Shown in pieces: positions 35,372 to 39,493 of a stretch of DNA of 64,000 bases. The notes under the pieces are model-generated. The model did not search any database. It was given only the letters and a program-made list of their open reading frames with translations, and had not been told where the DNA came from. Each line of letters opens with the position of its first letter. The stretch's first letter is position 1. The stretch is from Oceanidesulfovibrio marinus (GTDB taxonomy: Bacteria > Desulfobacterota > Desulfovibrionia > Desulfovibrionales > Desulfovibrionaceae). The DNA is taken from assembly GCF_013085545.1 (NCBI RefSeq), contig NZ_CP039543.1, positions 2,759,322 through 2,823,321 on the forward strand, written 5' to 3'. The position numbers were made by a program, and so were the translations under genes.

Positions 35372-35401
35372 AGCCCCCGCCCAGTGCGGGGGCTTTTTTT
35401 T
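35372..35401 (+). terminator. Intrinsic terminator of the frd-fumarase operon
   Basis: AGCCCCCGC pairs with GCGGGGGCT around CCAGT and runs into eight T. The following gene's ribosome site (GGAGA) lies directly behind the T-run. Confidence 0.93.
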
Positions 35402-35414
35402 GGAGAAATTCGCC

Positions 35415-36218
35415 ATGGATATCGCGATCTATCAGGTGGACGCCTTCACCAGCAGTATTTTCGGCGGCAACCCGGCTGCGGTCTGTCCCCTGGAATCCTG
35501 GCTGGACAAATCCATGATGCTGGCCATTGCGGCAGAGAACAACCTCTCCGAGACCGCCTTCTTTGCGCCCCAAGGCAAGGACTTCGCCATCCGCTGGTTC
35601 ACGCCCACAACGGAAGTGGAGCTGTGCGGCCACGCCACCCTGGCCTCGGCCCACGTCCTCATCTCGCAAATGGGGTACAGCGATCCCGTGATCCGCTTCC
35701 ACTCGGCCAGCGGCCCCCTGTCCGTGGAGTACACCGACGACGGCCTGCTCGCCCTGGACTTCCCGGCGTGGGAGCCCGGACCCATCACCGATGGTGACGG
35801 CGACGTCTCGACCATGGTCGCGGCCTTGGGCGGCGTACAGCCCGTGGAGGTCCTTGCCGCGCGGGACTATCTTGTGGTTCTGGAGAATGAGGAGCAGGTG
35901 CGGGCCGTTGCGCCGGACATGCAGGCCCTGACGCCGCTCAAGCCCGTCATCGTTACGGCTCCGGGCAAGGATAGAGCCGTGGATTTTGTCTCCCGAGTCT
36001 TTGCGCCCAGCCACGGCGTGGCGGAAGACCCGGTCACCGGCTCGGCGCACACGCAGCTCACCCCGTACTGGGCAAAACGCCTTGGCAAAAGCACCATGCG
36101 CGCGCGTCAGGTCTCGGCCCGCGGGGGCGAGCTCCTCTGCACCCTGAACGGCGACCGCGTAAGCATGGCCGGCGACGCCGTGCTCTACATGAGCGGAACC
36201 ATCACCATACCAGGGTAG
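35415..36218 (+). CDS. PhzF-family isomerase/epimerase-like protein
   Basis: A 267-residue protein of the PhzF family (diaminopimelate-epimerase fold, two similar halves). The N-terminal signature YQVDAFTSSIFGGNPAAVC, the catalytic-Glu segment NNLSETAFF and the C-terminal GVAEDPVTGSAHTQL are clear. Most family members have unknown substrates. The ATG at 35415 has GGAGAAA eight bases upstream; its promoter must lie within or upstream of the frd operon terminator, so it may depend on read-through. Its TAG stop merges with the start of a dispersed repeat. Confidence 0.92.
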   Translation: MDIAIYQVDAFTSSIFGGNPAAVCPLESWLDKSMMLAIAAENNLSETAFFAPQGKDFAIRWFTPTTEVELCGHATLASAHVLISQMGYSDPVIRFHSASGPLSVEYTDDGLLALDFPAWEPGPITDGDGDVSTMVAALGGVQPVEVLAARDYLVVLENEEQVRAVAPDMQALTPLKPVIVTAPGKDRAVDFVSRVFAPSHGVAEDPVTGSAHTQLTPYWAKRLGKSTMRARQVSARGGELLCTLNGDRVSMAGDAVLYMSGTITIPG

Positions 36219-36348: not shown

Positions 36349-38115
36349 CTACAGCAGCACAACCTGCAGCACCTGAATGCGGATGACGCGTTTGCCGCCA
36401 TCCGTCTCCACCCGCATCACCTCGGCCGAGATGCGGCTGTCCCGGCGGGTCAGCTCGCCCAGCCGCGCCTCGTCGTCCGGCGGCATGGAGGCCACCATGT
36501 AGGTCGCGCTCATCGCGCTGCCATGAGTGGTGAACAAAAGGCCCCCGGGCCCCCGGACAAAGCGGCCGGAAAGGTCGAGCACGTCGCCCTGGCGCACCTG
36601 GGAGGCGGGCTTAATCGCGGGCTGGCTGGAGTCTCTGGCCCGCATCGGCTCCGGCGTCAATGCCGGCTCGGCCGGAATCGCCTGACGCTGCATCTGTGCG
36701 GGCGTCTCCGAGGCTTCTGTAACGCTGGAGGTCTTTTCCCCGGTCACGATGGCGATGACGCCGCCCACCGTGGGCTGTTCGGACACGTAACGGTTCACCA
36801 CCGGGTCATCCACCCACTCGTAGCCGCCGCCCTTCTTCTCTGACCAGTACACGCGGTTCTCGTAGCCGCCGTCCGCGCGCTGCATCACGGCCACCACTTC
36901 GGGCGCGCCGTCGCCGTTCAGATCGCGCAGGCTCATGCCGCTCACCGTCACCGGAATGCCCGGCCCGTGCAGCGTGGCCAGCAGCCTGGGCCCGGTGTAG
37001 AAGGCGAAGTCCACAGGGCCGCGCTGGCCGCTGCCGCCCTGCAAGGCAAGGAAGCAGACCCGCTCGTCCTGGCCGGGCACGAAAGCCTCGGTGGAGTGTA
37101 TGGGCGAGAGCCGCATGTGGGGGAACTGCCCGGCGTACACCGCGCTGGGCAGGTAGCGGCAGTCCGTGTCCGAAAGGTCCAGTCCTGCAGCGCTGTCGAT
37201 CAGGTCCGTGCCTGCGCCGACAGACGCCGTCTCGTTGCCAAGCGCGGCGGTCGCAGTGGGCGCAGTGACGTTGCCCTCTCCGGTCTGGTTGGCCTGCCCC
37301 TCAGGCCCGGCCGTGCCGTTGAGGGCGTAGCCCGTTTCCAGAGCCGAGGACGGCTCCCCAGACGTCTGGTTTGCGGATGGCGCCGCGCCTTCCGTACCGT
37401 TGACGCCTTGCTCTCCGGACTCCGGCCCCGCCACCGTCGCAGTCTGGTTGACGGCCCCGCCCTGGGTTTCCATCTGCAGCTCGCGCAGCGCCTTGGCCAC
37501 GGGGTCCTCGCCAACCGTCTCGTTCTGGGCGTCGGAGGCATTCTCCTGCTCGCGGGCCATGCGCTCCTGATACTCGTCCTCGGGCTCCGGGATGATAATC
37601 GGCGCTTCGGAGGCTGCCGGCCACTCGTCCTGGTTCATGGCAGTCTGATTCGCCGTGCCATTGGTGACGCCAGTCTCGATGATCCCGATGGTCCCGTTGG
37701 CGTCCGCCGCCACGGGCAGAAGCTCAAACTCCTGCTCGCCGCCGATGCGGCCGGTGATGCCGGCATCGCCGCACACGCCCAGCCACGCCGGCTGTCCGGC
37801 GGCCTCGGGCAGCTCGCCGGCGTCCACAACCATGGACACCTCTCCACCCCTGGCCATGCCGCTCAGCTGCTGTGGCGGGCCGTCGTTGGGCGCGAAGCCG
37901 GCAATAAAAAAGATATCCTCGCGGCCGGGCCGGACCTCGTTCACCACCAGCGGGCCGCGGGCGAGCAGCCTGCCGCTAGAGGCCGTGACCACCGCGTCGA
38001 ACCGGTTGCCCTCTTGCAGCAGTGTTCCGCACGGCGCGGCCCATGCGTTGGCCGATCCGCAGCACGCGACACCCAAAATTAATGCGATGAGCCTGGAAAC
38101 TATTCGTGATTTCAT
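36349..38115 (-). CDS. Secreted protein with a sequon-dense linker, function unknown
   Basis: A 588-residue exported protein with a signal peptide (LIALILGVACCGSANAWA). Residues ~28-138 form an N-terminal domain with Cys pairs. Residues 139-320 are low-complexity and contain 12 N-X-T/S sequons (N140, 152, 156, 192, 198, 223, 239, 249, 266, 276, 282, 294), whereas Asn elsewhere are not in sequons. The C-terminal part has an FG-GAP-like strand (SLRDLNGDGAPEVVAVMQ), a Pro-rich stretch and a final domain. N-glycosylation in the periplasm by a PglB-type enzyme, known in Desulfovibrio, is plausible but no transferase gene is in the window. GAGGAAG precedes the ATG. Confidence 0.8.
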   Translation of the reverse strand: MKSRIVSRLIALILGVACCGSANAWAAPCGTLLQEGNRFDAVVTASSGRLLARGPLVVNEVRPGREDIFFIAGFAPNDGPPQQLSGMARGGEVSMVVDAGELPEAAGQPAWLGVCGDAGITGRIGGEQEFELLPVAADANGTIGIIETGVTNGTANQTAMNQDEWPAASEAPIIIPEPEDEYQERMAREQENASDAQNETVGEDPVAKALRELQMETQGGAVNQTATVAGPESGEQGVNGTEGAAPSANQTSGEPSSALETGYALNGTAGPEGQANQTGEGNVTAPTATAALGNETASVGAGTDLIDSAAGLDLSDTDCRYLPSAVYAGQFPHMRLSPIHSTEAFVPGQDERVCFLALQGGSGQRGPVDFAFYTGPRLLATLHGPGIPVTVSGMSLRDLNGDGAPEVVAVMQRADGGYENRVYWSEKKGGGYEWVDDPVVNRYVSEQPTVGGVIAIVTGEKTSSVTEASETPAQMQRQAIPAEPALTPEPMRARDSSQPAIKPASQVRQGDVLDLSGRFVRGPGGLLFTTHGSAMSATYMVASMPPDDEARLGELTRRDSRISAEVMRVETDGGKRVIRIQVLQVVLL

Positions 38116-38527: not shown

Positions 38528-39493
38528 TCAGTCCGCCGCGGCTTTGGTCTTTTCCTCGATAAGCGCTTTGGCGCGCTTGGCCAGCTGCGTTACCTCGGGC
38601 TTGGAGATCTGGTCGTCCGCGCCCACGGCGTCGCCCTTGTGGCGCAGCTTGTCCGTGATGAGCGAGGAGAAGAGGATGACCGGAAGATCGCGCAGCACGC
38701 CGTCTTCCTTGATGCGCTTGGTGAGGTTGTGGCCGTCCATGGAGGGCATCTCGATATCCGAGACCACCACGTGGACGTACTCGGTGATGGGCGACTCCTC
38801 TTCCACGGCCTTGGTCTTCAGAGCTTCCAGCGCTTCCCAGGCATCGCGGCCGTTGTTGTAGCTGGTGACCACGAAACCGGCCTTTTCCAGCAGATCCTTG
38901 AGCATCTCGCGGATGAGCGTGGAGTCGTCCGCCACCACGGCGTGGTAGGTGGCGTCGGAGGTCCAGTCCACGGCCTCGTCCAGCCGCATGGCCAGGCCGG
39001 GGTTCAGGTCGGAGACGATCTTCTCCAGGTCGAGGATGAAGACGATGCGGTTCTCCAGCTTGACCACGCCGGTGATGGAATTGTTGGACATGGAGGCCAC
39101 ATAGGCGTTGGGCGGCTCCACCTCTTCCCAGCTGATGCGATGGATGCGCGTGACGCCGGAGACGAGGAAGGCCGTGGTCACGTTGTTGAACTCGGTGACG
39201 ATGACCTTGGCTTCGCCGTCCTGGCGCCTGTCCTTGCCCAGCCACATGGCCAGGTCCACCAGGGGGATGATGTTGGAGCGCTGGTTGAACGCGCCCAGCA
39301 CGGAGGGATGGTTGACCTCCGGCATTTCGGTGATCTTGGGCTGGCGGATGATCTCCAGCACCTTGGCGACGTTCACGCCATAGTAGCCGCGGTACGGCTG
39401 CTCCTGGCCGGGAGCGGTCTCCTCCTCCAGGTAGAATTCAACGATTTCGAGCTCGTTGGTTCCGGATTCGAGCAAAATATTTGTTTGAGCCAC
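38528..39493 (-). CDS. cheV: Chemotaxis protein CheV (CheW-receiver fusion)
   Basis: A 321-residue adaptor coupling chemoreceptors to CheA. Residues ~10-165 are a CheW domain (YYGVNVAKVLEIIRQPKITEMP, GAFNQRSNIIPLVDL). Residues ~185-315 are a receiver with acidic pair in VVADDSTL, phospho-acceptor in VVSDIEMPSMDG, SS in place of the switch Thr and KPEV. It is likely a phosphate sink or adaptation factor. It stands 15 bp downstream of ispH in the same direction, so the two may share a transcript. Confidence 0.95.
   Translation of the reverse strand: MAQTNILLESGTNELEIVEFYLEEETAPGQEQPYRGYYGVNVAKVLEIIRQPKITEMPEVNHPSVLGAFNQRSNIIPLVDLAMWLGKDRRQDGEAKVIVTEFNNVTTAFLVSGVTRIHRISWEEVEPPNAYVASMSNNSITGVVKLENRIVFILDLEKIVSDLNPGLAMRLDEAVDWTSDATYHAVVADDSTLIREMLKDLLEKAGFVVTSYNNGRDAWEALEALKTKAVEEESPITEYVHVVVSDIEMPSMDGHNLTKRIKEDGVLRDLPVILFSSLITDKLRHKGDAVGADDQISKPEVTQLAKRAKALIEEKTKAAAD

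Follow-up and report, generated by a model that had tools for sequence, protein, structure and literature searches.

A disordered linker in a 588-amino-acid exported protein of Oceanidesulfovibrio marinus carries more N-glycosylation sequons than chance would give. We think that this linker is probably a multi-site acceptor for PglB, and that it would be one case of a genome-level selection for sequons in the disordered segments of exported proteins. The gene lies within the window, by which we mean the whole stretch of 64,000 nucleotides that was analysed, and its features are as follows:

36349..38115, minus strand: sequon-packed gene for the 588-aa exported protein (open reading frame; orthologue in the congener G001, 54-61% identity over two aligned parts)
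38038..38115, minus strand: Sec-type signal peptide, residues ~1-26 (by inspection; the G001 orthologue has an equivalent)
37711..38037, minus strand: N-terminal folded domain, residues 27-135, with a Cys pair and 0 sequons (a similar domain is in the distant G015 homologue)
37228..37698, minus strand: disordered linker, residues 140-296, with 12/13 Asn in N-X-T/S (from the sequence, shuffles, and a low-confidence model)
37477..37626, minus strand: conserved island inside the linker (WPAA-EAPIIIPEPED ... EDPVA-ALREL), residues 164-213 (alignment with the G001 orthologue)
36352..37179, minus strand: C-terminal region, residues 313-588, conserved in the genus (63% identity), with 0 sequons
36814..36927, minus strand: FG-GAP/VCBS-like calcium-loop motif (DLNGDGAPEVV), residues 397-434 (PF13517, below the cut-off)

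The protein begins with MKSRIVSRLIALILGVACCGSANAWAA, which we judged by inspection to be a Sec-type signal peptide (read by eye, it has a KSR n-region, LIALILGVACCG as the h-region, and ANAWAA). The calcium-loop motif scored 19.6 bits against PF13517, as compared to the Pfam cut-off of 26.9, and the protein has no match in NCBIfam. In a single-sequence AlphaFold model of low confidence (mean pLDDT 39.8), most of the linker has no predicted secondary structure, and residues 213-302 have none. So far as can be judged from its sequence, the protein appears to be periplasmic and to have several domains and a disordered spacer. The adjoining genes give no hint of glycosylation: they encode a CheV-like CheW+REC protein (38528-39493) and, on the other side and on the opposite strand, a PhzF-like protein (35400-36218).

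The sequon Asn are residues 140, 152, 156, 192, 198, 223, 239, 249, 266, 276, 282, and 294, and except for N192, which is in N-X-S, all are in N-X-T (11 of the 12). N161 is the sole linker Asn that is not in a sequon, and none of the seven Asn beyond the linker (23, 37, 59, 77, 400, 420, and 441) is in one. A preliminary description of this DNA had reported these same counts, the signal peptide, and the extent of the linker, and we agree on all three (residues 140-296 are window positions 37228-37698). It had also proposed that the sequons are selected, and they do not arise by chance: if the linker is shuffled with its composition kept, there are 1.9+-1.2 sequons, and the maximum in 100,000 shuffles was 8, as compared to the 12 observed. 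Just two of the sites have an acidic residue at -2, namely N140 (D138) and N282 (E280), which are the ones that had been singled out as fitting the strict rule. The idea of a mucin-like stalk fared less well: Pro, Thr, and Ser together account for 35 of the 157 linker residues, which is not the dominance expected of a mucin, the signal is centred on Asn, and we did not see a surface anchor in the protein. "Mucin-like" seems to fit as an analogy only, as the signature would be Asn-linked and the protein carries no sign of a cell-surface location.

Are the sequons conserved? A search of 59 relatives with the full protein identified a close orthologue only in G001, and a search of genome contigs with it found no relative. 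The linker of the G001 orthologue is shorter (the segment that matches residues 213-292 is mostly absent) and, except for the conserved island, it is poorly alignable. Nevertheless, it has five sequons on six Asn, which was reached by just 9 of 100,000 shuffles. Because this linker has diverged and is still dense in sequons, the sequons appear to be kept as a property rather than as fixed sites. A profile search with the C-terminal region found a distant homologue with a similar layout in G015, another member of the family, and its Q/P-rich linker has no sequons at all, so glycosylation would not be intrinsic to the core function of the protein. (The distant homologue is at L176:1-1950, and a gene for an MlaE-like permease is directly next to it.) The preliminary description had suggested that sequon counts in orthologues be compared, and its expectation holds in part: the density of sequons is maintained in G001, but the sites mostly differ, and the distant homologue lacks them. 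Given the sequons in G001 and their absence in G015, the trait appears to be genus-level and to have been added to a spacer that existed without it.

The same signature is visible across the genome. Our sample comprised 58 stretches (~1.16 Mb) plus the window, for 1.22 Mb or 26% of the genome. Genes were identified with a codon model, exported and cytoplasmic proteins were separated by a rule based on a hydrophobic segment at the N-terminus, and hydrophobic-poor segments of at least 31 residues were considered to be disordered; these are all heuristics. We left out the chemoreceptors because they have a conserved cytoplasmic motif, EEMNATV, that mimics sequons, and we recomputed the key numbers; this lowered the counts for G015 and left the signal in the source genome (G000) intact. 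With this sample, N-X-T is specifically over-represented in the disordered segments of exported proteins: there were 46, as compared to 13.9+-3.5 if shuffled and 12 if reversed, again without chemoreceptors. In these segments, Thr is found 47 times at N+2 as compared to 9-18 times at each other offset from -5 to +5, and we saw no enrichment of Ser at N+2 (with the chemoreceptors still included). Relative to disordered segments in the cytoplasm, the odds ratio for N-X-T was 6.3 (p=1e-11). Neither the cytoplasmic disordered segments (20 N-X-T vs 24.9+-4.4) nor the folded parts of exported proteins (81 N-X-T vs 77 T-X-N) have any excess. An acidic residue (D/E) at -2 is not favoured (4 of ~61 sites in exported disordered segments); the most common residues at that position are A, G, Q, and S, and X is mostly A, G, or Q. 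A DNA pattern for paired N-X-T codons, which was not frame-aware, was no more frequent than its backward control (22 vs 25). A DNA pattern scan also turned up runs of three or four consecutive N-X-T codons at G000:C1:3433852-3433895 and 1902973-1903004.

Some of the exported proteins are densely packed. In the genome sample, seven non-cytoplasmic proteins and 0/525 cytoplasmic proteins have a disordered segment with three or more sequons. The seven are the 588-aa protein, PglB itself, a ChaN-like protein, an OmpA/MotB-like coiled-coil protein, a multihaem cytochrome, an AMIN-domain protein, and a protein with one TM that has no Pfam match. In the ChaN-like haem-binding protein (L024:1822-3270), five of six Asn are in N-X-T, and the stretch is within the domain match. 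In the multihaem cytochrome (L026:9755-11371), the N-terminus past the signal sequence is TDNATGAPAQQNASNATMQRNFS, with four sequons on four Asn. If the cluster proteins are removed, there is still an excess (24 vs 10.8+-3.1 shuffled and 7 reversed; odds ratio 3.6 vs the cytoplasm, p=7e-5). Our best reading is that the 588-aa protein is the heaviest candidate substrate of PglB that we have seen.

As the preliminary description had recommended, we looked for pglB in the genome, and it does encode a PglB-type OST with every catalytic residue that we checked. This is one of two STT3-family genes (L009 8951-11311, which is G000:C1:~171950-174310), and the protein matches both STT3 and STT3-PglB_core from Pfam above their cut-offs. 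When aligned to PglB from C. lari, it has the WWDWG motif, and D61, D150/D152, E369, R381, R425, and WWD 512-514 are invariant across four PglBs from the Desulfovibrionaceae. We take the catalytic roles of those residues from what is established for the C. lari enzyme. A query of genome contigs with PglB found six distant relatives. The C-terminal tail of PglB, ...EANGTAANATQPTNGTESGENTTQPANTTQ, has five N-X-T sequons on five Asn, which was reached by 3/50,000 shuffles; the PglB of G001 has no such tail and 0 sequons, and no sequon tail is present at the end of the PglBs of 28 more distant relatives. There is no cluster of glycan-synthesis (pgl) genes around pglB, which stands alone. Bac_transf (PF02397) is found at six places in the genome, none of which we could assign to a pathway for the lipid-linked oligosaccharide.

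In other genomes the pattern is weaker. G001 encodes PglB and, beyond the orthologue of the 588-aa gene, which is its one cluster, has no bulk excess of sequons (5 vs 3.9, in a 0.44 Mb sample). G015, which has a single STT3 match above the family cut-off, has 15 N-X-S/T as compared to 5.8+-2.3 (above all 500 shuffles, without chemoreceptors), but this excess is insignificant relative to its own cytoplasmic rate of N-X-T. There was no excess in G072 (which has PglB) or in G025 (which has no match to STT3), both with smaller samples. So far, and with small comparison samples, we have seen the trait in strong form in the source genome alone.

Could the sequons be an unmodified by-product of a linker that is rich in T, N, G, and Q, or of repeat slippage? 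The linker is indeed of low complexity and rich in A, E, G, and T, and such linkers evolve rapidly. But shuffles with the same composition never give 12 sequons, Thr is enriched at offset +2 and not at -2, +1, or +3, and disordered segments in the cytoplasm, without any excess, do not behave this way. Furthermore, a tandem DNA repeat is not the cause of the packing, because the codons for Asn, X, and Thr differ among the linker sequons and the sole array that TRF identifies is a weak 28-bp one at the linker's edge. The by-product explanation is strongly disfavoured already, and we give it a slim chance.

The other alternatives accept that the sites are used and invoke a different enzyme than the PglB at 172-174 kb. 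A second STT3-like protein (L008:8003-10096, G000:C1:~1.163-1.165 Mb) belongs to the STT3 family (85.7 bits), and G001, which has no bulk excess, has the PglB orthologue and not this protein. On the other hand, the second protein has a degenerate version of the WWD motif (NWDIA), it matches the PglB core only marginally (25.0 bits vs a cut-off of 23), G001 keeps five sequons in the orthologue without the second gene, and G015 has its N-X-S/T excess with a single STT3 above the cut-off. We consider it unlikely, though less so than a by-product, that this protein acts on the sites. (The second gene adjoins glycosyltransferases and is near transposases, in a stretch with lower GC3.) A cytoplasmic enzyme of the NGT/HMW1C type, which would glycosylate N-X-T before export, uses the same N-X-S/T sequon. 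The excess, however, avoids the disordered segments of cytoplasmic proteins, which such an enzyme could reach, and we found no match to HMw1_D2 in the genome, although the control genomes for that search gave none either. This strikes us as the least credible of the three.

PglB is our preferred enzyme, and what is known about it in related bacteria fits. The PglBs of Desulfovibrio act on minimal N-X-T sites and accept residues at -2 that are not acidic (PMC4894442). The preliminary description had mentioned this laxity at -2, and the lack of an acidic preference in our sample is consistent with it. The known systems (DgPglB, DdPglB, and DvPglB, with HmcA of D. gigas as the acceptor) also share the conserved OST active site and the periplasmic location of acceptors (PMC4894442). 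HmcA carries its native glycan at TANGT (PMC4894442), and this one site, N261, is the known native site in Desulfovibrio, whereas here there are up to twelve in one disordered linker, clusters in several proteins, and a sequon tail on PglB itself. The pgl system of Campylobacter jejuni resembles ours in its OST family, its acceptor logic, and its preference for flexible, exposed sequons, on which PglB is reported to be ~15-fold better (PMC8518210). But C. jejuni PglB predominantly requires D/E at -2, which just 2 of the 12 linker sites have, and its pgl genes form a cluster at one locus (PMC6025236), unlike the solitary pglB here.

Mucin domains and the O-glycosylated low-complexity regions of bacterial periplasmic proteins are rich in Ser and Thr and are loaded with glycans at multiple sites. 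The multi-site loading of a disordered linker would be similar here, but the signature is Asn-X-Thr and points to the STT3/PglB family. We found no description in the literature of sequon-packed linkers in Desulfovibrio.

We propose that the 588-aa protein would first be exported by Sec, and that PglB would then move a lipid-linked glycan onto the Asn of the N-X-T sites. The acceptor would be the flexible spacer, 160 residues long, that joins the N-terminal domain to the C-terminal part with its FG-GAP-like motif. Across the genome, selection may have placed sequons in the linkers, tails, and loop insertions that exported proteins contain, and PglB could glycosylate its own five-sequon tail. 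That the same pattern is found in other exported proteins, including PglB, suggests a deliberate sugar-coating of disordered exported segments. Both the occupancy of the sites and the role of the glycans are our inference: a likely benefit is that a glycan coat would keep disordered periplasmic segments extended, soluble, and resistant to proteases. We see the chances as evenly balanced for a broader claim, that sequons were selected en masse into exported disorder in this lineage, including the tail of the OST (auto-glycosylation), to give an Asn-linked counterpart of mucins and a proteome-wide glycan shield. Such a shield would have arisen recently, as the congener has the pattern in a much weaker form.

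The native targets of the Desulfovibrio type of PglB, which is relaxed in its specificity and has been studied for glycoengineering, are almost unknown. The source genome provides candidate substrates that are predicted to be heavily modified and that have many minimal N-X-T sites, and possibly an OST that glycosylates itself. The enrichment of Thr at N+2, which is confined to exported disordered segments, is a signature that may allow the acceptor rules for an OST to be deduced from a genome. It would also become testable why bacteria N-glycosylate their proteins, with the protection of disordered periplasmic segments as the proposed answer.
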